Of a stretch of DNA of 64,000 nt, positions 30,581 to 58,140 are shown piece by piece (position 1 is the stretch's first letter; each line of letters begins with the position of its first letter). This stretch comes from Spirochaetaceae bacterium (GTDB lineage: Bacteria > Spirochaetota > Spirochaetia > Treponematales > Rectinemataceae), in assembly GCA_025356015.1 (NCBI GenBank), contig JANXYO010000069.1:62001-126000 (forward strand), given 5' to 3'. Under the pieces are notes generated by a model. It saw only the letters and a list, made by a program, of their open reading frames with translations, was not told the origin of the DNA and did no database searches. The position numbers were made by a program, and so were the translations under genes.

Positions 30581-31072
30581 TCAAGGTGCCTTCTTCCAGA
30601 ACCCCGCGTGGACCGCGAGGACCTGTGAGCTGACCTCTTCGAAGGGGCCGAGGACCTCGACGTGGCGCTGGCCGCTTGCGAAGATCTTGCGGCAGGGGAG
30701 GTCGAGTGTCGGGTTCCTCTCGTCTGAGCCGGTAAGCTCCAGGAGCCTGCGCTCCGGAACGCCGTAGACCACCCGGCCTATGCCGCTCCAGTAGACGGCG
30801 CCCGAGCACATCGCGCAGGGTTCGAGGGTCGTGTAGAGTGCGCAGCTTGCGAGGAAGGCCTTTGACCAGCGCTTCGAGGCCGCCCGCACCAGGGCAGTCT
30901 CGGCGTGGCCCGTGCAATCGTTCTCCGCGACCTCGACATTGCCCTGCTCGAGGAGGATCTCCCCGTCGGGACCGGCCAGAAGGGCGCCGAAAGGGGTGTT
31001 GCCGGTCTCTCTCGCAATCCTGGACAGCTCGGCGCAGCGCAGCAGGAGGGCGACATGGTCCGACCTGTTCAT
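30581..31072 (-). CDS. zinc-dependent nucleobase deaminase (guanine deaminase/TadA-like)
   Basis: A 163-residue member of the cytidine-deaminase fold. The zinc site is intact: GHAETALVRAA (His and catalytic Glu) near residue 55 and LEPCAMCSGAVYWSGI (two Cys) near residue 84. The GAVYWSGIGRVVYGV stretch is closer to free-base guanine deaminases than to tRNA adenosine deaminases, but this is a judgement by motif only. AAGGAG lies just before ATG at 31072; an upstream in-frame ATG at 31117 has no such site. It is divergent from the membrane cyclase at 31188. Confidence 0.83.
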   Translation of the reverse strand: MNRSDHVALLLRCAELSRIARETGNTPFGALLAGPDGEILLEQGNVEVAENDCTGHAETALVRAASKRWSKAFLASCALYTTLEPCAMCSGAVYWSGIGRVVYGVPERRLLELTGSDERNPTLDLPCRKIFASGQRHVEVLGPFEEVSSQVLAVHAGFWKKAP

Positions 31073-31187
31073 GGCTTCTCCTTCCGGGAGCTTGTCCTCA
31101 TGGCCCCCTTCCTGCAACTATAGCCTCGCCGCCACTGCCGGTACAGCTTTGAAGGCGGGATCAAGGGGACATTCGCCAGGAACGCGC

Positions 31188-33023
31188 ATGAAGGATGGGC
31201 TTGGAAAGAAAATGGCCGCAAAGGATCGCGGCAGCACAAAGCGGATCCTGGGTTTCGGCCTCAGGCTTAAGATCACCCTCACCTTCTTCGTCATAAGCGC
31301 CCTGGTGGGAGGCCTGATCTCATGGTCCAGCTACCGGGTCCTGAGCGACCAGCTCTTCCAGGAGCTGCAGGGCAAGGTCCTCAACCTCCCGCGCATACGC
31401 AGCATGATGCTGGACAGGCCCGCCCTCGCCCGTCTCGCCTCAAGCCTCCAGGTGGAGATGGACGAGGCAGGGACGGCGGCCGTGGAGCAAGGCGCCGACT
31501 ACCGCACGATCTCCGAGCAGCTCAACTCGATCCGCGAGGTCGACGGCCGGCTGGTCCGCTACATCTACCTCTTCGCCCCGACGGCAGATCCCGACCACGC
31601 GCGCTATCTCGCCGATGCCGACGCCCTCGGCCTGCTTTTCCGCAGGGCGAAAGGCGAAAAGATCGCCGACGAAGAGATCACCCGTTTCGGCTCGGACTTC
31701 GACATCTCGCTCTTCCCGGTCGCGAAAGCGGCGCTCGCCGATGGCAAAAGCGCCGTCGAGCACGAGTATTCCTGGGACGATGCCTTCAAGGTCAATTCGG
31801 TGAGCGGCTACAGCCCGGTGACGGGTAAGGACGGGAAGCCCCTCGCATGGCTCGGCCTGGACATGACCGACACCGATGTCAGGGCCTCGCTCGCGAGGGC
31901 GACAAGGCTCTCCATCCTCATCACGGGAGCAGCCCTTTGTCTTTCGCTCGTCGCCTCAGTCATCCTGGGCCTCCTGTTCACGAAGGGAATCATCTACCTC
32001 GACCGCATCGTGAAGCGTTTCGGCGACAGGGAGTTCGACGCCCGTGCCCAGGTGCGCAGCCGTGACGAGGTGGGGCGCCTAAGCCACTCCTTCAACCAGA
32101 TGGCGCACACGATAGAGCTCTACAGCGCCCAGCTCCAGGGACTCTTGGACGCCTACGCCCGCTTCGTGCCCCAGGACTTCCTCAAGTTCCTCGAGAAGGG
32201 CAGCATCGTGGACGTCAAGCTCGGCGATCAGGTGAGGCGCGAGATGACCGTGCTGTTCAGCGACATACGCCAGTTCTCCACCCTCTCCGAGTCGATGTCG
32301 CCCGAGGAGAACTTCAATTTCCTCAACTCCTACCTCAAGCGGATAGGGCCCGAGATCAGGAACCATTCCGGCTTCATAGACAAGTATATCGGCGACGCCA
32401 TCATGGCCCTCTTCCCGACCGACCCGAAGGACGCTATCGATTCGGCGATCGCGATGATGAGGAGCGTCAGGTCCTACAACGGGGACAGGGCCAAGAGCGG
32501 CTACAAGCCGATCGCGATAGGGATCGGCATCAACCTGGGCTGGCTCATGCTCGGCACCCTTGGCGAGGATCAGAGAATGGACGGCTCGGTGATATCGGAC
32601 GCGGTCAACCTCAGCTCGAGGTTCGAGGGCCTCACCAAGTTCTACGGGGCCTCGATACTCACGACGGACGCCACCTTGCGCCGGGTCGGGGGACCTACCA
32701 ACTTCCGCGTCCGGCTGATCGACCGCGTGCTCGTCAAGGGCCGCTCGGCGCCGGTCAACATCGTGGAGATCCTGGACGGAGACGCCGAGGAAAGGCTTGA
32801 GCTCAAGCTGAGGACAAAGACGGCTTTCGTGAGGGCACTCGGCCAGTACCACGACAGGGACTTCGCCTCGGCCCACAGGTCCTTCTGCAGACTCGCGGTC
32901 GAGGATCCAGAGGACAGGGTCTTCTCCATCTACGTCGAGCGCTGCGAGATCCTGCTCAAGGGACGGCCCGGGCTAGGACTGGGACGGGGTCGAGGTCTTC
33001 GACTTCAAATGAGGCTGCTTTAG
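31188..33023 (+). CDS. membrane adenylate cyclase with HAMP domain, frameshifted at the extreme C-terminus
   Basis: About 611 residues. Domains: a transmembrane helix (residues 25-45), an extracytoplasmic sensor of about 180 residues, a second helix (TGAALCLSLVASVILGLLF), a HAMP linker (RDEVGRLSHSFNQMAHTI), and a class III cyclase domain. Both metal-binding Asp are visible (VLFSDIRQFSTLSES and YIGDAIMALFPTD) and the transition-state Asn/Arg region is SVISDAVNLSSRFEGL. It should make cAMP in response to an external ligand. The open frame ends in a run GLGLGRGRGLRLQMRLL, whereas the next frame gives DWDGVEVFDFK and TGA at 33010-33012, the expected kind of ending; a one-base indel lies near 32965-32982. 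Start at 31188 follows AGGAACG. Confidence 0.88.
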   Translation: MKDGLGKKMAAKDRGSTKRILGFGLRLKITLTFFVISALVGGLISWSSYRVLSDQLFQELQGKVLNLPRIRSMMLDRPALARLASSLQVEMDEAGTAAVEQGADYRTISEQLNSIREVDGRLVRYIYLFAPTADPDHARYLADADALGLLFRRAKGEKIADEEITRFGSDFDISLFPVAKAALADGKSAVEHEYSWDDAFKVNSVSGYSPVTGKDGKPLAWLGLDMTDTDVRASLARATRLSILITGAALCLSLVASVILGLLFTKGIIYLDRIVKRFGDREFDARAQVRSRDEVGRLSHSFNQMAHTIELYSAQLQGLLDAYARFVPQDFLKFLEKGSIVDVKLGDQVRREMTVLFSDIRQFSTLSESMSPEENFNFLNSYLKRIGPEIRNHSGFIDKYIGDAIMALFPTDPKDAIDSAIAMMRSVRSYNGDRAKSGYKPIAIGIGINLGWLMLGTLGEDQRMDGSVISDAVNLSSRFEGLTKFYGASILTTDATLRRVGGPTNFRVRLIDRVLVKGRSAPVNIVEILDGDAEERLELKLRTKTAFVRALGQYHDRDFASAHRSFCRLAVEDPEDRVFSIYVERCEILLKGRPGLGLGRGRGLRLQMRLL

Positions 33024-48562: not shown

Positions 48563-49072
48563 TCACTCCTTCTCTTCGGGAATCAGGTCCTCGGGGGCTG
48601 ATGGATCGGCGGTGTCTGCCCCGGCGCGCAGTGAAGCGGCCTCGCGCAGGGTCACCATGATCTCATCCATGCGGCGCAGGTGGCGCGAGAGATCGCGAGC
48701 CAGGTTCATCACCATGATCGCGAAGACCTTGACGTCCATCTTGTAGATGTCGTGGAAGGAGACGTTGCTTATCCTGGCCACCCTTGTTGGCACGGCTGCC
48801 TTGACGGTCGCCGCCGAGGGCATGACGTCCAGGAATTCCATCTCGCCAAAGGTGTCGCCTTCGCGGAGTTCGACGAGAAAGGAGTGGCGCTTCGAGACTT
48901 CGACCCTGCCCTCGAGGATGAAGTAGATGCTGTCGTTCGGCTTCCCCTCGGTCTGGATCGGCGCGCCCGCCTCGAAGGAGCTGATGGCCAGGAAGCAGCG
49001 CACGCGCTCGATGTCCTCGGGGAGGAGACCGCCGAAGAGCGAGTACTTCTGCAGGGACTCCAGGTTGACCAT
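48563..49072 (-). CDS. stand-alone cyclic-nucleotide-binding domain protein
   Basis: A 169-residue protein consisting of one cNMP-binding domain (residues 5-125) and a helical tail. Motifs: YSLFGGLLPEDIERVRCFLA, EGKPNDSIYFILEGRVEVSK and GDTFGEMEFLDVMPSAATVKA. The phosphate-binding cassette keeps FGEM but has Ser-Ala where the Arg that grips the cyclic phosphate normally stands (RSATV in most). No DNA-binding helix-turn-helix is present, so it is not a Crp-type factor. It could bind a nucleotide weakly or act as a protein scaffold. ATG at 49072 follows GGAGAGG. Confidence 0.88.
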   Translation of the reverse strand: MVNLESLQKYSLFGGLLPEDIERVRCFLAISSFEAGAPIQTEGKPNDSIYFILEGRVEVSKRHSFLVELREGDTFGEMEFLDVMPSAATVKAAVPTRVARISNVSFHDIYKMDVKVFAIMVMNLARDLSRHLRRMDEIMVTLREAASLRAGADTADPSAPEDLIPEEKE

Positions 49073-49243
49073 GCCCCCTCTCCTCGAATCCACGCCCGGC
49101 TCCCACGATTAGGGCCCGCAGGGCCGATCCAGACGGAACATACCACGATCGGAGCCTGAGGGCAAGTTGCGCTTTTGCCGAGATGAGGTCGCCTTGAGGC
49201 CAGGGGCCGATGTGCTAGAAAACCCTAACTCAAGACGGTCGGC

Positions 49244-49931: not shown

Positions 49932-50900
49932 ATGGTCGAGCGCTATGGTTTTTCGAACGGCAAGGTGGTCCCGGTCGCGGACAACCCGAGCATCCTGGTC
50001 TACGCCGCCCCGACCGACACCGAGAGGCAGGAGCTCCTCGACGACTACGGACTCGACGCCCACAACCTCTCCTCGGCCCTCGACCCCGACGAGCTCGGAC
50101 GGGTCGAGCTCGACGGCGCCAGGGCCGACATCATCCTCAAGGTGCCGCGCAACTTCACCTCCGAGGACCAGCTCCTCTTCACCGTGACCTCTATGGGCCT
50201 CTTCATATCGCCCAAGCGCCTCATCGTCGTCACGACCGACCCCATCGACCTCTTCCACGACCGCTCCATCCACAGGGTCGGCAACGTCAGGGACGCCATG
50301 CTCAAGATCTGGTACGGCACGATCTCCCATTTCCTGGGCCATCTCAAGGTCATCAACATGCTCTCGGATTCCCTCGAGAAGCGCGTCAACGCCTCGATGG
50401 GCAACCGCTACCTCCTCGACATGTTCACCCTCGAAAAGAGCCTTGTGTACTTCGTCAACGGGATCAGCTCCAACCAGATGGTCCTCGAGAAGATGCAGGT
50501 CTGCGCCCCCAAGCTCAAGTTCACGGCCTCCCAGCGCGAGACCCTCGAGGATATCGGGATCGAGAACCTGCAGTGCTCCAAGCAGGCCGAGATCTACTCG
50601 AACATCCTCACTGGACTCATGGACGCCCGGGGCTCGGTGGTCAACAACAACCTCAACATCCTCATAAAGCGTCTCACCATAATCTCGGTGGTCTTCATGC
50701 CGATGAACGTCCTCGCCGGCATGGGCGGCATGTCGGAGTTCTCCACCTGGACGGCCGCCATACCCTGGCCCATCGCCTATGGCCTTGCCCTCCTCGCCCT
50801 GACGGCCGTCGGCTTCGGCACCTGGTGGCTCCTCAAGAAGTTCGGGATCGAGCGCAATGAGATGGATCATCGCGGCCGCCGAAGGCCAGCGGTGCGGTAG
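49932..50900 (+). CDS. CorA-family metal ion transporter with altered GMN motif
   Basis: A 322-residue CorA-like channel. A large N-terminal cytoplasmic alpha/beta domain and long helix (to about residue 255) precede two C-terminal membrane helices (LTIISVVFMPMNVLAGMGGM and WPIAYGLALLALTAVGFGTW). The universal CorA selectivity motif Gly-Met-Asn at the end of the first helix is replaced by AGMGGMSEFS, so the pore Asn is missing. It may carry Mg2+ or other divalent ions with altered selectivity. GGAGGG precedes the ATG. Confidence 0.85.
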   Translation: MVERYGFSNGKVVPVADNPSILVYAAPTDTERQELLDDYGLDAHNLSSALDPDELGRVELDGARADIILKVPRNFTSEDQLLFTVTSMGLFISPKRLIVVTTDPIDLFHDRSIHRVGNVRDAMLKIWYGTISHFLGHLKVINMLSDSLEKRVNASMGNRYLLDMFTLEKSLVYFVNGISSNQMVLEKMQVCAPKLKFTASQRETLEDIGIENLQCSKQAEIYSNILTGLMDARGSVVNNNLNILIKRLTIISVVFMPMNVLAGMGGMSEFSTWTAAIPWPIAYGLALLALTAVGFGTWWLLKKFGIERNEMDHRGRRRPAVR

Positions 50901-50917: not shown

Positions 50918-51988
50918 ATGGCAGTGATAAGCGCGCGGGGCCTTGGCAAGACCTTCAGGACCAAGGTCAAGGCCGAGGGCTTTGCAGCCTCGGTGCGTGG
51001 CCTCGTCCGGCCCGTCTGGCGCAGCATTGAGGCAGTGCGGGGCATCGACCTCGAGGTCGAGGAGGGCGAGGTCCTTGCCTTCCTGGGCCCGAACGAGGCA
51101 GGGAAGTCCACGACGATCAAGATGCTCACCGGCATCCTCAGGCCCAGCCTCGGCTCGGCCACCGTGCTCGGCCTCGATCCCTCGAGGGACAGGGTCGCCC
51201 TCGCGCGGTCCATCGCCGCGGTCTTCGGGCAGAGGAGCCAGCTCTGGTTCCACCTGCCGCCAAGCGACAGCTTCCGCCTCCTCGGGGCCGTCTACGAGAT
51301 CGATGGGCGGGAGCTCGTCCGGCGCCAGGGGGAGCTCGTGGAGCGCTTTGGCATCGGGGACTACATGGACGTGCCCGTGCGCAAGCTCTCCCTGGGCGAG
51401 CGCGTCAGATGCGAGTTCGCGGCGAGCCTCCTCCACGCCCCCCGCATCATCTTCCTCGACGAGCCCACGATCGGGATGGACGTGGTGGCCAAACGCGAGA
51501 TCCGAGGCCTTCTCGAGGAGGTCAACAAGCGCGACCGCGTGACGATCTTCCTCACCAGCCACGACATCGGGGACATCGAGAAGGTGTGCAAGCGAGCCAT
51601 CATCATCCACCACGGGTCCATCATCGTGGACGAGTCCATGAAGAGCCTCAAGCACCGCGCGATGTCCAGGAAGATCGTGGGGGTGAAGTACGCTGCGCCC
51701 GCCCGGCCCGACATCCCGGGCCTCGAGCCGATCAAGCGGACCCAGGACGCCGTGCGCTACGAGGTGGACACCGGCAGGCACCGCATAGAGGAGGTCCTGC
51801 GCTTCCTGGTCGCGGCCGGCGAGGTCCTCGACATCACCGTCGAGGACGAGCCCCTCGAGAACATCATCGCCGGCATCTTCGAGGGCGAGGACCGCGGCGC
51901 CTCCCTCGCGGCGGCAGGCAGGGCCGCGGCGGGCACGAGGACCGAGGCCGCGCCGCCCCCGGCCCGGGATGAAGGCAGGGAGGCATGA
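50918..51988 (+). CDS. ABC-2 exporter ATP-binding protein (COG4586-like)
   Basis: A 356-residue ATPase. Walker A GPNEAGKSTTIKMLTG near residue 52 (Glu replaces the usual third Gly, a tolerated position), signature LSLGERVRCEFAASLL, Walker B IIFLDEPTIGMDVVAK and H-loop FLTSHDIGDIEKV. The N-terminal strand and the C-terminal 100-residue extension fit the COG4586 type, which works with COG4587 and COG3694 permeases, exactly as found next. It overlaps the first permease by four bases (ATGA). Exported substrate unknown. The last 25 residues are Ala/Pro-rich. Confidence 0.92.
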   Translation: MAVISARGLGKTFRTKVKAEGFAASVRGLVRPVWRSIEAVRGIDLEVEEGEVLAFLGPNEAGKSTTIKMLTGILRPSLGSATVLGLDPSRDRVALARSIAAVFGQRSQLWFHLPPSDSFRLLGAVYEIDGRELVRRQGELVERFGIGDYMDVPVRKLSLGERVRCEFAASLLHAPRIIFLDEPTIGMDVVAKREIRGLLEEVNKRDRVTIFLTSHDIGDIEKVCKRAIIIHHGSIIVDESMKSLKHRAMSRKIVGVKYAAPARPDIPGLEPIKRTQDAVRYEVDTGRHRIEEVLRFLVAAGEVLDITVEDEPLENIIAGIFEGEDRGASLAAAGRAAAGTRTEAAPPPARDEGREA

Positions 51989-52788
51989 GCCCGCTCGCCC
52001 TGGTCCTCCGCAAGTACCTGGTCGCTGCCTTTGTGAGCCTCAGGAACAAGGCCGCCTATCCCGGGAACCTCCTGGGCTCCCTCCTGAGCTACGCCATCTT
52101 CGTCTTCGTGTTCTCGCGGATCTGGGGGACGATCTATTCCGGCAGAGCCCCCATCGCCGGCTACGACGGGCGGATGGCCATCTGGTACTTCATCATCGCC
52201 GAGGTCACGGCCTTCGGGTTCGGCCGTTTCTTCATCTCCCTGGCCCAGGACATGAAGTCGGGCCAGGTCGCCTACCTTTTGTCCAGACCCTACGATTTCG
52301 TGCTCTACCACTACGCGGACCGCATGGGTGCGGCCATCCCCGAAGCGGCCGTCCTCCTCGCCCTCGGCCTTTCGATGGGGGCGACCTTCGCCGGCCCGGT
52401 CCCCCTCGCCTCGATCGCGCAGGCGTTCTTCCTTCTTCTGTCCCTCCTCCTCGCTGGCAGCATCCAGTTCCTCCTGCAGTTCTCCCTGGCCATGACCGCT
52501 TTCTGGGTCGAGGAGAACACAGCCTTCTTCTGGATCTACCAGAAGCTGTCCCTTGTCGTCGGCACCCTCGTGCCCCTCGAGTTCCTTCCGGCAATCGCAC
52601 AACGCCTTGCCTGGTTCACGCCCTTTCCCTCGATCGCCTACGCCCCGGCCAGGATCGCCGTCGCCTACACGCCGCACGAGGCCCTGCGTCTCGCGGGTCT
52701 GCAGGCGGCATGGCTGCTCGCTTCAGCCCTCCTCTGCAAGGCCGTCTTCGCCCTGGGCCGCTCGAGGCTCACGGTGCAGGGAGGCTGA
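51985..52788 (+). CDS. ABC-2 exporter permease (COG4587-like)
   Basis: A 267-residue membrane protein with about six hydrophobic segments (LLSYAIFVFVFSRIWGTI, WYFIIAEVTAFGFGRFFISL, LASIAQAFFLLLSLLLAG). Landmarks of the COG4587/DUF990-type permeases include RMAIWYFIIAEVTAFG and SGQVAYLLSRPYDFVLYHYA. The AGGGAGG site lies within the end of the ATPase gene, so the genes are translationally coupled. It should pair with the next gene as the channel of an exporter. Confidence 0.88.
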   Translation: MSPLALVLRKYLVAAFVSLRNKAAYPGNLLGSLLSYAIFVFVFSRIWGTIYSGRAPIAGYDGRMAIWYFIIAEVTAFGFGRFFISLAQDMKSGQVAYLLSRPYDFVLYHYADRMGAAIPEAAVLLALGLSMGATFAGPVPLASIAQAFFLLLSLLLAGSIQFLLQFSLAMTAFWVEENTAFFWIYQKLSLVVGTLVPLEFLPAIAQRLAWFTPFPSIAYAPARIAVAYTPHEALRLAGLQAAWLLASALLCKAVFALGRSRLTVQGG

Positions 52789-52790
52789 AG

Positions 52791-53612
52791 ATGGGAAAGG
52801 GCGGCGCAAGGCCATGGTGGAGGACAGCCCTGTCCTGCATGCGTTTCCTCGCGACGAGCTTCGTGGTCAACGTGCAGTCGGCCCTCGAGTACAGGACCAA
52901 TTTCCTCATCCAGGTCTTCGGGATGGCCCTCAACAACGCGGCCTTTGCCGCCTTCTGGGCTGTCCTCCTCTCCAGGACGGGAAGCGTGGGGGGCTACGTC
53001 TTTACGGACGTGATGTTTATCTGGGCCATCGTGCCGGCGGCCTTCGGCCTCGCCCACGCCCTCGCGGGCAACATCAGGTCGATTGGGCAGATCGTCCAGA
53101 GGGGAGAGCTCGATGTCTACCTGCTTCAGCCAAGGGACGTCTGGCTCAACCTCATCACCTCGCGGACCGTGGTGTCGGCCTGGGGTGATTTCCTCTACGG
53201 CTTCCTCGTCATCGCCCTGCTGCCGGGCCTGAGCCCCGGGCGCTTCGCGCTTTTCTGCGCCATGACCCTCACCGGGGCCGCCATCCTGGTCGCCGCCTTC
53301 TCGGCCGCCGAGAGCCTCGTGTTCTTCATGGGCGACTCCTCGAGCGCGAGCGGAGCCTTCACCGAGTTCCTGCTCTCCTTCTCCCTCTACCCCGAGACGG
53401 TCTTCGACAGGGGCATGAGGTGGGTGTTCTACACAATCGTTCCCTCGGGCTTTGTGGCCTTCGTCCCCCTGGCCGCCTATAAGGCCCTCGAGTGGAGGGC
53501 CCTAGCCCTCCTGGTCCCCGCTTCCCTGGCCTACACCGCGGCGAGCTACGCCCTTTTCAGGCTTGGCCTGCGGCGCTACGAGTCGGGCAACCAGGTGGGG
53601 ACAAGGAGCTAG
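52791..53612 (+). CDS. ABC-2 exporter permease (COG3694-like)
   Basis: A 273-residue membrane protein with six hydrophobic segments. Features shared with COG3694 permeases: SALEYRTNFLIQVFGMALNN, VFTDVMFIWAIVPAAFGLAH, IVQRGELDVYLLQPRDVWLN and VFYTIVPSGFVAFVPLAAYK. GGAGG stands upstream of ATG 52791, two bases after the previous stop; the longer open frame back to 51969 is a shadow of the first permease. It ends facing the lipoprotein gene with adjacent stops in the palindrome CTAGGCCTAG. Confidence 0.88.
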   Translation: MGKGGARPWWRTALSCMRFLATSFVVNVQSALEYRTNFLIQVFGMALNNAAFAAFWAVLLSRTGSVGGYVFTDVMFIWAIVPAAFGLAHALAGNIRSIGQIVQRGELDVYLLQPRDVWLNLITSRTVVSAWGDFLYGFLVIALLPGLSPGRFALFCAMTLTGAAILVAAFSAAESLVFFMGDSSSASGAFTEFLLSFSLYPETVFDRGMRWVFYTIVPSGFVAFVPLAAYKALEWRALALLVPASLAYTAASYALFRLGLRRYESGNQVGTRS

Positions 53613-53614
53613 GC

Positions 53615-54343
53615 CTAGCCCATGGAGTAAGGGTCGCCACCCGGCCATGACATGAACTCGATCCGGATGAAGAGCTCGCCATTGAAATCGATCACCTCGA
53701 AACCCTTTATCAGGAAGCCCTCGGACTTCATCTTCAGGTCGGGGGCGATGTCACTCGGATTGGCGGACCTGGTCTTGGCCGCCGAGATCGCCGCCTCGAG
53801 AGAGAGCCAACTCGGACCCGGGGCAGGTTTGCTGCCCGACATGGTCCTGAATTGAGGGAGGGAGCGTATGGCCTTGGTGGTCTTGCCGATGGGTCCGCTG
53901 ATCAATACCCCGTTTCCAGCGGCCCCCTTGTCCACTGCCGGACTCAGGCGCATCGAGACGACGACGGGCAGGCCCTTGCTGCTGCGCAGCTCGGCCTTGC
54001 TCCCCTGCAGACCCTGGAGGTAAAAGCCAAATCTGAGCGCAGGAAGGCTTGTCCCCCCATTCTTGAGGAGGATCGAGCCCTCGGGTAGTTCATCCCTGCC
54101 AACGTTGACAACTGCGACGTCCAGCAGGACCCTTCCGGTCTTTAGGCCTTTGGCAGCCAGGAGGGCATGCTCGTCGTAGTCGATCGTCGCGAAGACCTTG
54201 TCCCCGCGCATTATGGATACGCTCCTGTGGCCCTCGGCCTTCGGTCCCATCGTGTCGGAGCCATCGGGCAGGCCGGCGCAAGACAGGAGGGCCATCGCCA
54301 CCGCGGCCACCAAGGCCCCACCCAAAGCAGCATTTTTCCTCAT
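53615..54343 (-). CDS. lipoprotein coupled to the cyclase-STAND protein
   Basis: A 242-residue predicted lipoprotein: signal MRKNAALGGALVAAVAMALL ending at lipobox LLSC. The mature part has beta-type strands (SVSIMRGDKVFATIDYDEHA, VLLDVAVVNVGRDELPEGSI, GFLIKGFEVIDFNGELFIRI) and no recognised family. Its ATG overlaps the stop of the upstream cyclase-STAND-TPR gene in ATGA, with GGAGGG inside that gene's end, so the two proteins are made together. That pairing of a cytoplasmic signalling ATPase and an envelope lipoprotein is unusual and suggests a joint function. Confidence 0.75.
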   Translation of the reverse strand: MRKNAALGGALVAAVAMALLSCAGLPDGSDTMGPKAEGHRSVSIMRGDKVFATIDYDEHALLAAKGLKTGRVLLDVAVVNVGRDELPEGSILLKNGGTSLPALRFGFYLQGLQGSKAELRSSKGLPVVVSMRLSPAVDKGAAGNGVLISGPIGKTTKAIRSLPQFRTMSGSKPAPGPSWLSLEAAISAAKTRSANPSDIAPDLKMKSEGFLIKGFEVIDFNGELFIRIEFMSWPGGDPYSMG

Positions 54344-57213
54344 TTTTCCCTCCATTCCGGGTCCTGTGACTTTATTGGATCGGCCTTGCCAGCGGCCTCG
54401 ATTCTCGTTCGCAGCTCCCTCGCCCTCGCGAGCTCGTCGGCATCGCGGAGCTGGGAGAATATGGTCTCTGCCTCACCGAGGCGGGCAAGGGCCTGGCCAT
54501 AATCGCGGCGGGCCTCGTGGACTTCGGCCAGGATCCGCATGCACCAACCCTGTTCGGTGCGGGACGAGAGGGGACTGGCGAGACGCTGTGCCTCGGTTAC
54601 CCTGTCAAGGGCCTCGTCAAGACGACCAAGGGCAAGCAGGCTCTCGGCCTGGCTGCTCAGGGCAAGGGCTATGAACCTCGGCCAGCCGAGTGCCCTGGCC
54701 GAGGTCTCGAAATCGGAGAGCTGCTCAAGGGCGGCCTCGTGGTCTCCGGTCTGGGCGTAGAAGCAACCGAGGTTGTTGGCGGCGTGGAGGATCGCCTCCC
54801 GATCGCCGACTGCCGCCGCCAGTTCCAGGGCATGCCTTAGATTCGCCCTCGCCGAATCGAAATCTCCGGATCTGGCCATCGCGACACCAAGGTTGGTGAG
54901 GGCCCTCGATGCTGTGGCCATCCTGCCCTCGGCCTCGAACTCGCGGGTGGCGGCGAGGAGGAGGTCCCTGGCCAGGTCCAGCCTCCCCTCGATCAGGCTG
55001 GTCGTGCCGAGGCCGTGCTTCGCCCTCGCGATGAGGATGGGATCACCGCTCTCCCGGGCCGCTTCCATCGCTGCCTCGAAGGATTCCCTCGCCCCTCGGG
55101 CCTCGCCCTGGCGATACTGGGTCCAGCCCGTGCCTATCCGCGAGCGGGCTAGATCGCGAGGCCGGGCAGCATCCTGGGCCATGTTCCTGAGACCCTCGAA
55201 GGCCGCGAGCGATTCGGCGTACTCGCCCCTCGCCCGGTGGAGGTCTCCAAGCCACTCGAGGGCCACCGTGCCGCATTCCTTGACCGTTCCTTCGTCGGAC
55301 CGGGAGAGCGCGGCCCGAAGCCGCTCTATCCCCTCCTCGAGCATGCCCCGATTCTCCCAATAGCTGCCAAGGCCACAGGCGAGACGAAGCGCCGAGCCGC
55401 ACTGCCCCGTGGCAATGAAGTCCTCGTAGGCGGCGATGTAGTCGGGGTATTCCCTGTCGATGCCGCCGAAGTATTCAACCTCGCCGCAACGCGAGCCTCC
55501 GCTTCCACGACCGCACTCGGCAAGCTCGAGGAAGCGGCGCGAGTGCAACTCCCATACGGCGGCTGCCTCTCCCGAGGCCTCGAGCCTCTCCCGGGCGAAG
55601 GCCCTGAGAGTCTCGAGCATGCGGTAGCGCGTCTCGGCCTCGCCCTCCTCCCTGAAGATGAGGCTCTTGTCGACAAGTGAAGCGATCAGGTTGCCCACGC
55701 CCCTGGAAGCGCGCTTCCCACCGGAGAGGGGGCGGAGCAGGACCTCGGCCGATTCAAGGCTAAAGCTGCCCGCGAAGACCCCGAGGGACCGGAAACCGCT
55801 GCGCTCCCTGACCGAGAGGAGGCCATAGCTCCACTGGGCGGCGGCGCGCAGGGTCCTATGCCTCGCCGGCAGGTCGGCCACCTCGGATTCGAGGAAACCG
55901 AGGTCCTCGCCGAGGCGCTTGAGTATCTCGTGGGGGCTGAAGCTCCGTACCCGGGCCGCGGCGAGCTCTATGGCCAGGGGTATGCCCTCGAGGCGCACGC
56001 AGATCTCGGCTATCGGCGGCGCGTTGGCCTCGTTCACCGCGAAACCCGGCCTGGCGACCGTGGCCCTCTCGATGAAGAGGGCCACGGCCTCGTACTGGCC
56101 GATCCTGTGGGCCGTCCTGGGCAGGGCCAGGTCGGGCAGGGCAAGGGGCGCGAGGGGCAGGGTCCTCTCCCAGCGTATCCCGAGGGCCTCCCTGCTCGTG
56201 CCCAGTATCGCAAGCCCCGGACAGGACTCGAGGAGCTCCCCGATCAGGGACCCAGAGGCCATGTCCTGCTCGAGGTTGTCAAAGATGAGGAGGATGCGGC
56301 GGTCGCCGACATAGTCCTTGAGGGCTTCGGCTGGGCTCCTCCCCTCGCGTTCCTTGACCACCAGGACGCGGTTTACCGTCCTCGCTGTGTCTGCGGCGTT
56401 GCGGCAGTTGGAGAGGTCAATGAACCAGACGCCGCCCGCCGCGGCGTCGACGAGCTCTGCTCCCGACTGGAGGGCCAGTCTGGTCTTCCCTGCCCCGCCG
56501 GAGCCGATGATCGTGAGGAGCCTGCAGGCGCCGCCGCCCCTGGCTGCGTCGCCCTGGCCCGAAAGCCCGGGCGCGAAGGCCGAGCGTATCGCCTCGACCT
56601 CGGGCTCCCTTCCCACAAAAAGGGTGGGCTGGAGGGGGAGGTTGTGGGGCTTCCCGTCCAGCGAGGGGAGGGAGGGGAAGCTCACCCTGAGGCCAGGGGC
56701 ACAGACTTGAAAGAGCCTTTCTGGCCTGCTCAGGTCCTTGAGCCTGAAAAGGCCCAGGGGACTGAGCTCGCAGTCGGCCGGCAGGTGATCGACGAGGAGC
56801 TCGAAGCTGGCGAGTGAGCAGACGATCTGGCCGCCGTTGACGAGGGAAAGGATCCTGGCGCAGCGGTTGAGGACGGGGCCGAAGAAGTCCCCGTCACGCT
56901 CCTCGGTCGTGCCCGAGTGGATCGCCATCCTCACGATGATGCCGCCCGAGATCACCCAGGCCTGGGCGGCCAGGCCCGACTGGGCCTCAAGGGCGGCCTT
57001 GAGGGCCGAGCGGGGATCCTGGAATGCGGCGCAGAACGCGTCGCCAACGGTCTTGAAGACATAGCCGCCCTGGGACTCGATCGCCGCCCTGAGGATGGCG
57101 TCGTGCTGTCTGAGAGCCCTGGCCATCTCCCTCTGGTCACCCTCCCACTTGCGGGTGCTGCCCTCGATGTCGGTGAGGAGGAAGCTGAGGGTTCCGCTCG
57201 GCAGCCGAGTCAT
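54340..57213 (-). CDS. class III cyclase-STAND ATPase-TPR signalling protein
   Basis: A 957-residue cytoplasmic protein. Residues 1-170 are a class III cyclase domain (GTLSFLLTDIEGSTRKWEGD with the first metal Asp, TVGDAFCAAFQDPRSAL with the second). A linker leads to a STAND/NB-ARC-type ATPase (P-loop LLTIIGSGGAGKTRLALQ near residue 235, Walker B RRILLIFDNLEQDM, sensor SREALGIRWERTLPLAPL). From about residue 540 to the end come winged-helix and many TPR-like repeats (AKHGLGTTSLIEGRLDLARD, ALTNLGVAMARSGDFDSARA, NNLGCFYAQTGDHEAALEQL). The TPR part should sense a ligand or partner and the ATPase switch the cyclase. Start at 57213 fits the family N-terminus; no strong ribosome site is seen. Confidence 0.9.
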   Translation of the reverse strand: MTRLPSGTLSFLLTDIEGSTRKWEGDQREMARALRQHDAILRAAIESQGGYVFKTVGDAFCAAFQDPRSALKAALEAQSGLAAQAWVISGGIIVRMAIHSGTTEERDGDFFGPVLNRCARILSLVNGGQIVCSLASFELLVDHLPADCELSPLGLFRLKDLSRPERLFQVCAPGLRVSFPSLPSLDGKPHNLPLQPTLFVGREPEVEAIRSAFAPGLSGQGDAARGGGACRLLTIIGSGGAGKTRLALQSGAELVDAAAGGVWFIDLSNCRNAADTARTVNRVLVVKEREGRSPAEALKDYVGDRRILLIFDNLEQDMASGSLIGELLESCPGLAILGTSREALGIRWERTLPLAPLALPDLALPRTAHRIGQYEAVALFIERATVARPGFAVNEANAPPIAEICVRLEGIPLAIELAAARVRSFSPHEILKRLGEDLGFLESEVADLPARHRTLRAAAQWSYGLLSVRERSGFRSLGVFAGSFSLESAEVLLRPLSGGKRASRGVGNLIASLVDKSLIFREEGEAETRYRMLETLRAFARERLEASGEAAAVWELHSRRFLELAECGRGSGGSRCGEVEYFGGIDREYPDYIAAYEDFIATGQCGSALRLACGLGSYWENRGMLEEGIERLRAALSRSDEGTVKECGTVALEWLGDLHRARGEYAESLAAFEGLRNMAQDAARPRDLARSRIGTGWTQYRQGEARGARESFEAAMEAARESGDPILIARAKHGLGTTSLIEGRLDLARDLLLAATREFEAEGRMATASRALTNLGVAMARSGDFDSARANLRHALELAAAVGDREAILHAANNLGCFYAQTGDHEAALEQLSDFETSARALGWPRFIALALSSQAESLLALGRLDEALDRVTEAQRLASPLSSRTEQGWCMRILAEVHEARRDYGQALARLGEAETIFSQLRDADELARARELRTRIEAAGKADPIKSQDPEWREK

Positions 57214-57375
57214 GGCGAGACCCGGTCTCTGACGGCGCCCTTGGGCCGCGAGGGGATCATTAGTGCAATTCAAGGGGATGGGAGCGCATCTGTCAAGATT
57301 AATATATCGATTTCGACCGCGCCTTGACCGAGGCGCGATGGGCGAGCGATGATGCTCCCCAGGAAGGAGGCCTTG

Positions 57376-58140
57376 GTGTTCAGGAACGCGATTGTCAGAA
57401 GGCCCGCAAGCTCCATGGTGCAGGGCATCAGCTCCCACCCCGAGCTCGGGAAGCCGGATTACGAACTCGCCCTCCGCCAGCACTCGGCCTACAAGGCCAC
57501 CTTAAGGCTTTGCGGCCTCGAGCTGCGCGAACTGGACTGCGACGAGAGGTATCCCGATTCCTGCTTCGTCGAGGATGTCGCGGTCTGCACAAAGGCCTTC
57601 GCGATGCTCGCGAGGCCGGGAGCGCCGAGCCGCGCGGGTGAGACCGAGGGCATGGCCGCCCTGCTCGCCGAATACTGGCGCGAGGTCGAGTCGATCAAGG
57701 CGCCCGGCAGCCTCGAGGGCGGCGACGTCATGATGGTCGGCGACCATTTCTACATCGGCCTTTCCGCGAGGACGAACAGGGAGGGGGCCGGACAGTTCAT
57801 GGCAGCCCTGGAGCGCCATGGCCTCTCGGGGAGCCTCATCGAGATGCCCGAACTCCTCCACCTCAAGACCGGCCTGGCCTGGCTCGAGGACGGGACCTTG
57901 CTCACGACCCGGGAATTCCTTGACCATCCCGCCTTCAAGGCCTTCAGAAAGATCGTGGTTCCTGAGCACGAGGCCTACGCGGCCAACTGCATCAGGGTCA
58001 ACGACAGGGTCATCATGCCCTCGGGCTACCCCGAGACCGAAGGCAAGATCAGGGACTCAGGCTTCGCCGTGAGTCTTGTCGACAGCTCCGAATACCGCAA
58101 GCTCGACGGGGGTCTCTCCTGTCTTTCCCTCAGGTTCTAG
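57376..58140 (+). CDS. dimethylarginine dimethylaminohydrolase-like amidinohydrolase
   Basis: A 254-residue amidinotransferase-fold enzyme of the DDAH type, which hydrolyses methylated arginines (or arginine) to citrulline. The GTG at 57376 is chosen because AAGGAGG lies five bases upstream and the protein then begins FRNAIVRRPASSMVQG, the usual start; an ATG at 57349 would translate the ribosome site itself. Catalytic motifs: RYPDSCFVEDVAVCT, KAPGSLEGGDVMMVG, LLHLKTGLAWLEDG (His) and the terminal LDGGLSCLSLRF (nucleophile Cys). It is followed after 17 bases by a Gfo/Idh oxidoreductase on the same transcript. Confidence 0.88.
   Translation: MFRNAIVRRPASSMVQGISSHPELGKPDYELALRQHSAYKATLRLCGLELRELDCDERYPDSCFVEDVAVCTKAFAMLARPGAPSRAGETEGMAALLAEYWREVESIKAPGSLEGGDVMMVGDHFYIGLSARTNREGAGQFMAALERHGLSGSLIEMPELLHLKTGLAWLEDGTLLTTREFLDHPAFKAFRKIVVPEHEAYAANCIRVNDRVIMPSGYPETEGKIRDSGFAVSLVDSSEYRKLDGGLSCLSLRF

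Follow-up and report, generated by a model that had tools for sequence, protein, structure and literature searches.

A gene encoding a class III cyclase fused to a STAND ATPase and a TPR array is followed, in eight related genomes, by a gene for a small partner protein with an invariant C-terminal tail, and this conservation points to an undescribed signalling pair. With a probability of about one half, and on the basis of sequence, we propose that the two genes form a bicistronic cAMP-signalling module, in which a STAND-gated cyclase and its dedicated partner would tie cAMP output to the condition of the envelope. The architecture of the cyclase is already known, and it is the dedicated partner that appears to be undescribed. 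The sequence-only reading had not recognised a pairing of this kind with a secreted lipoprotein; we likewise found no such pair, and no description of the partner family, in the freely accessible literature searched. Cyclase-STAND-TPR proteins occur in several phyla, and no biochemically defined input for them was found in the literature examined. A linked, dedicated partner provides a specific candidate for the molecule that such a protein detects or regulates, and the partners are a small protein family whose invariant tail is open to testing. Should the partner turn out to be the cue or else the output, direct experiments on a class of bacterial cAMP sensors would become possible.

The gene pair and its conservation among relatives

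The two genes are located in the window, the 64,000-nucleotide stretch of DNA from a Spirochaetaceae bacterium analysed here (Table 1). They are flanked in the window by a divergent and a convergent gene, so the cyclase and partner genes make up a stand-alone two-gene unit. The positions that the sequence-only reading had given for the pair, and the ATGA overlap of its genes, agreed exactly with the sequence. A 4-nt overlap is unremarkable for this genome, and the window has others at 51988/51985 and 40625/40622; the pair is therefore judged to be more than chance from its retention in all eight orthologs, and not from the overlap alone.

Table 1. Features of the cyclase-partner locus and its boundaries (window coordinates)
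Feature	Position	Strand	Details and basis
Class III cyclase-STAND ATPase-TPR gene	57213-54340	minus	957 aa (P0001); ATG at 57213, TGA ending 54340; translation, Pfam, ortholog motifs
Partner gene	54343-53615	minus	242 aa (P0002); ATG at 54343, stop at 53615; translation
ATGA stop/start overlap of cyclase and partner genes, 4 nt	54343-54340	minus	Sequence
GGAGG Shine-Dalgarno of partner gene	54350-54354	minus	Six bases 5' of ATG, within the cyclase reading frame
Arginine deiminase-like gene	57349-58140	plus	Divergent; Pfam ADI; unit boundary, outside the pair
ABC-2 transporter permease gene	52785-53612	plus	Convergent; Pfam ABC2_membrane_6; unit boundary, outside the pair

The ortholog set comprised the window and seven further genomes (G002, G014, G017, G058, G040, G157 and G090), a small sample from one order, and the orthologous cyclases share 36-52% identity with the window cyclase. 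The sequence-only reading would have been refuted had related genomes lacked the lipoprotein gene beside the cyclase; a small protein gene was directly downstream on the same strand in 8/8 orthologs, and the pairing thus stood. The distance between the two genes was +36 nt in G002, +14 in G014, +24 in G017, +16 in G058, -4 in G040, +17 in G157 and +80 in G090, and a purine-rich Shine-Dalgarno sequence precedes the partner start in all seven. The ATGA coupling described for the window is present there and in G040 (L008), but the other six pairs are separated by gaps of +14 to +80 nt. Translational coupling was rejected as a defining feature, since the overlap is kept in only two of the eight pairs; it is common elsewhere in the genome. 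The conserved feature is the adjacency of two genes in an operon, together with a partner that carries an invariant tail.

A single-sequence search of 58 relatives with the partner gave no true match, and conservation of the partner became visible only when the genes downstream of the cyclase orthologs were read. Partner profiles, full-length against 394 genomes of the order and C-terminal against 244, gave strong matches only beside the eight cyclases, one per genome; the C-terminal profile gave one further match, weak and at chance level. Since the profiles were built from the eight partners, their own scores prove nothing, and the information lies in the absence of orphan copies, none of which was found with the full-length profile in the 394 genomes. 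A search of contigs with the cyclase returned one relative from Actinomycetota, in a match without the cyclase.

A maximum-likelihood tree built from 19 relatives separates the eight paired cyclases from the others by a branch supported at 98/98, and this paired clade is spread over three families. Four of the five nearest cyclase-STAND relatives outside the clade have no partner downstream; the fifth, L009, cannot be judged, as its contig ends 146 bases away. Across neighbourhoods of 10-20 kb, the cyclase and its partner were the only genes common to all eight loci. A CorA-type transporter gene is near the pair in two of the eight genomes (window 49932-50900; L117 6668-7660 in G058), and a small number of further gene families are shared between two loci at a time. 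In G090, the gene immediately before the paired cyclase encodes, by eye, a secreted FecR-like protein (L041 626-1372).

The cyclase-STAND-TPR protein

The Pfam Guanylate_cyc domain matched residues 8-141 above the cut-off, within a cyclase region of residues 1-175. There follow a STAND NTPase of AAA_16/nSTAND/NB-ARC type at about residues 196-360 (Pfam match starting at about 199), a winged-helix/helical part at about 361-560 and a TPR array at about 600-940 (Pfam match starting at about 650). Pfam scores of the NTPase were under the cut-off in the window protein alone and stronger among orthologs, with an NB-ARC match in five of the six orthologs scanned. The protein has both metal aspartates (D15 and D58), the transition-state residues N116 and R120 and the purine-selecting residues K54, the ATP-type lysine, and D109, all of them invariant among the orthologs that retain the region. 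The metal aspartates, the Asn/Arg pair and the fold match assign the domain to the class III nucleotidyl cyclases, and the closest solved structures by sequence were members of this class, for example GRESAG 4.3 and Ma1120 (aligned to 1fx4 and 4wp3). Walker A (GSGGAGKTR at 237) and Walker B (LLIFDNLE at 308) are intact, and are invariant where the region is present. The sensor TSR motif of the window protein is GTSREAL at 338 and its GxP motif GIPLA at 410; both are conserved among the orthologs, the GxP motif as GLPLA in the G090 cyclase. Walker A, a Walker B with DN.E, TSR and GxP together identify a STAND ATPase (NB-ARC/AP-ATPase-like). The count of motif conservation omits L006, whose N-terminus is missing at a contig edge. 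This confirmed the proposal that a class III cyclase with both metal aspartates is fused to a STAND ATPase and TPRs.

In class III cyclases, a lysine together with an aspartate at the purine-selecting positions predicts ATP as the substrate, and hence cAMP. Since K54 and D109 are kept, ATP is the predicted substrate and cAMP the predicted product, and sequence predicts an active, adenylate-specific, cAMP-making enzyme that is probably cytosolic. In the paired clade, invariant positions make up 33% of the cyclase domain, about 17-18% of the STAND part and 4% of the TPR array. The latter is the least conserved region of the protein, with only 14 invariant positions, nearly all of them Gly, Ala and Asn of the generic TPR consensus. 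A conserved output with a variable sensor and a variable partner body fits a STAND switch through which binding of a cue by the TPR array would lead to dimerisation of the cyclase.

With 20 class III cyclase domains and 26 cNMP-binding domains encoded in the genome, a cyclic-nucleotide output could be read, and the window cyclase is one of many inputs to a rich cyclic-nucleotide network. About 5 kb from the pair, the 176-aa product of a minus-strand gene at 48563-49093 consists of little more than a single cNMP-binding domain and is a possible reader of the cyclic nucleotide; by eye, the gene overlaps a RidA-like gene. The second class III cyclase of the window (30912-33023, plus strand) has a HAMP-like membrane architecture by eye.

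In Mycobacterium tuberculosis, the Mclx proteins (Rv0386, Rv1358 and Rv2488c) are described as carrying a class III cyclase homology domain, then an AAA/NB-ARC ATPase and a LuxR HTH (PMC4452763). The window protein shares with them an N-terminal class III cyclase followed by an AAA/NB-ARC-type ATPase; however, it ends in a TPR array in place of the LuxR HTH, with no HTH in the Pfam scan. According to a study cited in PMC4452763, Rv0386 has non-canonical substrate-selecting residues, whereas the window cyclase keeps the canonical K and D; and while the description of Mclx examined mentions no linked exported partner, the window cyclase has a putatively exported one. Generic cyclase-STAND proteins, including L025 in the same genome, L053 and L054 in the phylum and copies on Sinorhizobium plasmids, have the same domain order; L025 and the Sinorhizobium copies share 35-40% identity with the window protein, and the longer of the generic proteins have the TPR array. 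They differ in having no downstream partner gene where this was testable, and those placed in the tree, the Sinorhizobium copies apart, lie outside the paired clade. No such partner is annotated beside the rhizobial-plasmid genes. In both Sinorhizobium plasmids (L130 and L131), an M12 metallopeptidase gene is near the cyclase-STAND gene on the opposite strand, and the annotation of one of the two splits the cyclase reading frame into a pair of overlapping genes. The window protein also resembles STAND-TPR regulators of the MalT/AfsR type in its AP/NB-ARC-like ATPase and TPRs (matches to the TPR_MalT and AfsR models), but it has a cyclase as its output where those regulators have an HTH or SARP transcription-factor domain.

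The partner family

The window partner begins MRKNAALGGALVAAVAMALLSC, with a lipobox (LLSC) and Cys22 as judged by eye, and consists of this lipobox signal, a variable body and a conserved C-terminal tail, FMSWPGGDPYSMG. Scans of the partner against Pfam, NCBIfam and PADLOC gave no match, a PDB profile search gave chance matches only (complement factor B, E about 1), and a single-sequence AlphaFold model had a pLDDT of 33. The motif W-P-x-(x)-D occurs within the last 20 residues of 8/8 partners versus 2/3107 background ORFs. This extreme C-terminus, which can also be written WPx(G/D)D, is the sole invariant part; the bodies are fast-diverging and barely alignable across the eight orthologs. 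Pairwise homology was detected between the window and G017 partners (23.7% over 215 residues, E 4.7e-7), and in leave-one-out profile tests three of the eight partners ranked first (E 3e-5 to 0.015), while the G014 copy was not recovered. Since full-length homology is weak, the partners are assigned to one family by their position, size and export signal, and chiefly by the C-terminus. The idea that the tail is a general C-terminal sorting tag was rejected, because it is found once per genome and only beside cyclases of the paired clade.

Export signals were recognised by eye in seven of the eight partners, as a lipobox in two (LLSC in the window, LIGC in G040) and a type I-like signal in five. 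The partner was thus correctly called a lipoprotein at the window locus, but lipidation is not a property shared by the family. The one partner lacking an export signal, that of G090, begins with MGTTDKLPKE, and an in-frame stop precedes its start by 30 nt; G090 is a draft of 72% completeness, so this exception needs care. In G002 the partner gene is followed by a gene that is lspA-like by eye (L004, after 4249), probably by coincidence, since the G002 partner has no lipobox.

A proposed envelope-linked module and its alternatives

In the proposed module, the first gene would encode an adenylate cyclase that is located in the cytosol and controlled by a STAND ATPase switch. The fast-diverging TPR array would bind a peptide or protein cue, exchange of ATP would reorganise the STAND core so that cyclase domains form active dimers, and the resulting rise in cAMP would reach the cNMP-binding effectors of the cell. 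The second gene would supply a dedicated partner in the same circuit, usually Sec-exported and sometimes lipidated. This partner would most likely be an envelope component made together with the sensor, tying cAMP output to envelope condition. We infer cAMP as the product, the STAND gating, the TPR ligand and any contact between the two proteins, and likewise that the pair signals across the envelope. Since the cyclase is predicted to be cytosolic and the partner is mostly exported, direct contact is not obvious.

The difference in predicted compartments is also what would be expected if the two genes were co-transcribed and mechanistically separate, with an envelope partner needed under the conditions in which the cyclase is expressed and no pathway shared between them. 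The rapid divergence of the partner and the lack of a known interaction are consistent with this. However, an exclusive association throughout the clade, across three families and with no other gene shared, goes beyond usual co-expression, and we consider this explanation rather unlikely.

A further explanation gives the partner the role of the cue. When left unexported, it would be bound by the TPR array through the WPx(G/D)D tail, switching the cyclase on or off, and cAMP would report export or envelope load. This would explain both the invariant tail and the signal-less copy: a TPR protein adjoins a protein that is invariant only at its extreme C-terminus, the tail is too exclusive to the paired clade for a general sorting tag, the G090 partner would remain in the cytosol, and the gene overlap in two genomes keeps synthesis of both proteins close. 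However, a groove that receives an invariant tail should be conserved, and the few invariant TPR positions are nearly all generic consensus; the tail may also simply form the end of the fold's last strand. We therefore regard it as distinctly improbable that the partner is the cue, although, if unexported partner is indeed sensed, secretion would be monitored in a novel manner.

The sequence-only reading had also hinted at defence. In a phage-defence or conflict module, the STAND-TPR part would sense an invader protein, cAMP would be the alarm, and the exported partner would be an effector or immunity-like. cNMP cyclases have been noted among conflict-system domains (PMC7159879; PMC8195603), STAND-TPR proteins and cyclases both occur in such systems (PMC7159879, PMC8195603, PMC12931631), and the sensor and partner diverge fast. 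As in Pycsar, a cyclase operon contains a second gene. However, PADLOC gave only a generic TPR match and a PycC match at E 0.059 and 10 bits, which is too weak for assignment to PycC, and unlike the effectors of Pycsar the partner is not of PycTIR or PycTM type and has no cNMP-binding domain. Avs models gave no match. The window neighbours scanned gave only cross-matches to an ABC ATPase and a cNMP-binding domain, no defence genes were found among them or in the ortholog neighbourhoods, and the latter are non-conserved and mostly housekeeping-looking, not defence islands. Matches in phage collections were limited to three unannotated faecal contigs. The hint of defence was thus not borne out, and a role of this kind is very unlikely. 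One phage-collection entry, L132 (MT838110.1), is a 14-kb contig of human faecal origin, listed as 'bacteriophage' and unverified; it encodes a cyclase-STAND-TPR protein that covers 83% of the query, and may be mislabelled bacterial DNA.

It is most improbable that the cyclase domain only binds nucleotide while the STAND-TPR part does the work: the Pfam score of the window cyclase is low (27.6 bits, or 31.7 in the genome scan, second lowest of the 20 in the genome), but none of its catalytic residues varies within the clade, and the cyclase domain ranks with the best-conserved parts of the protein.
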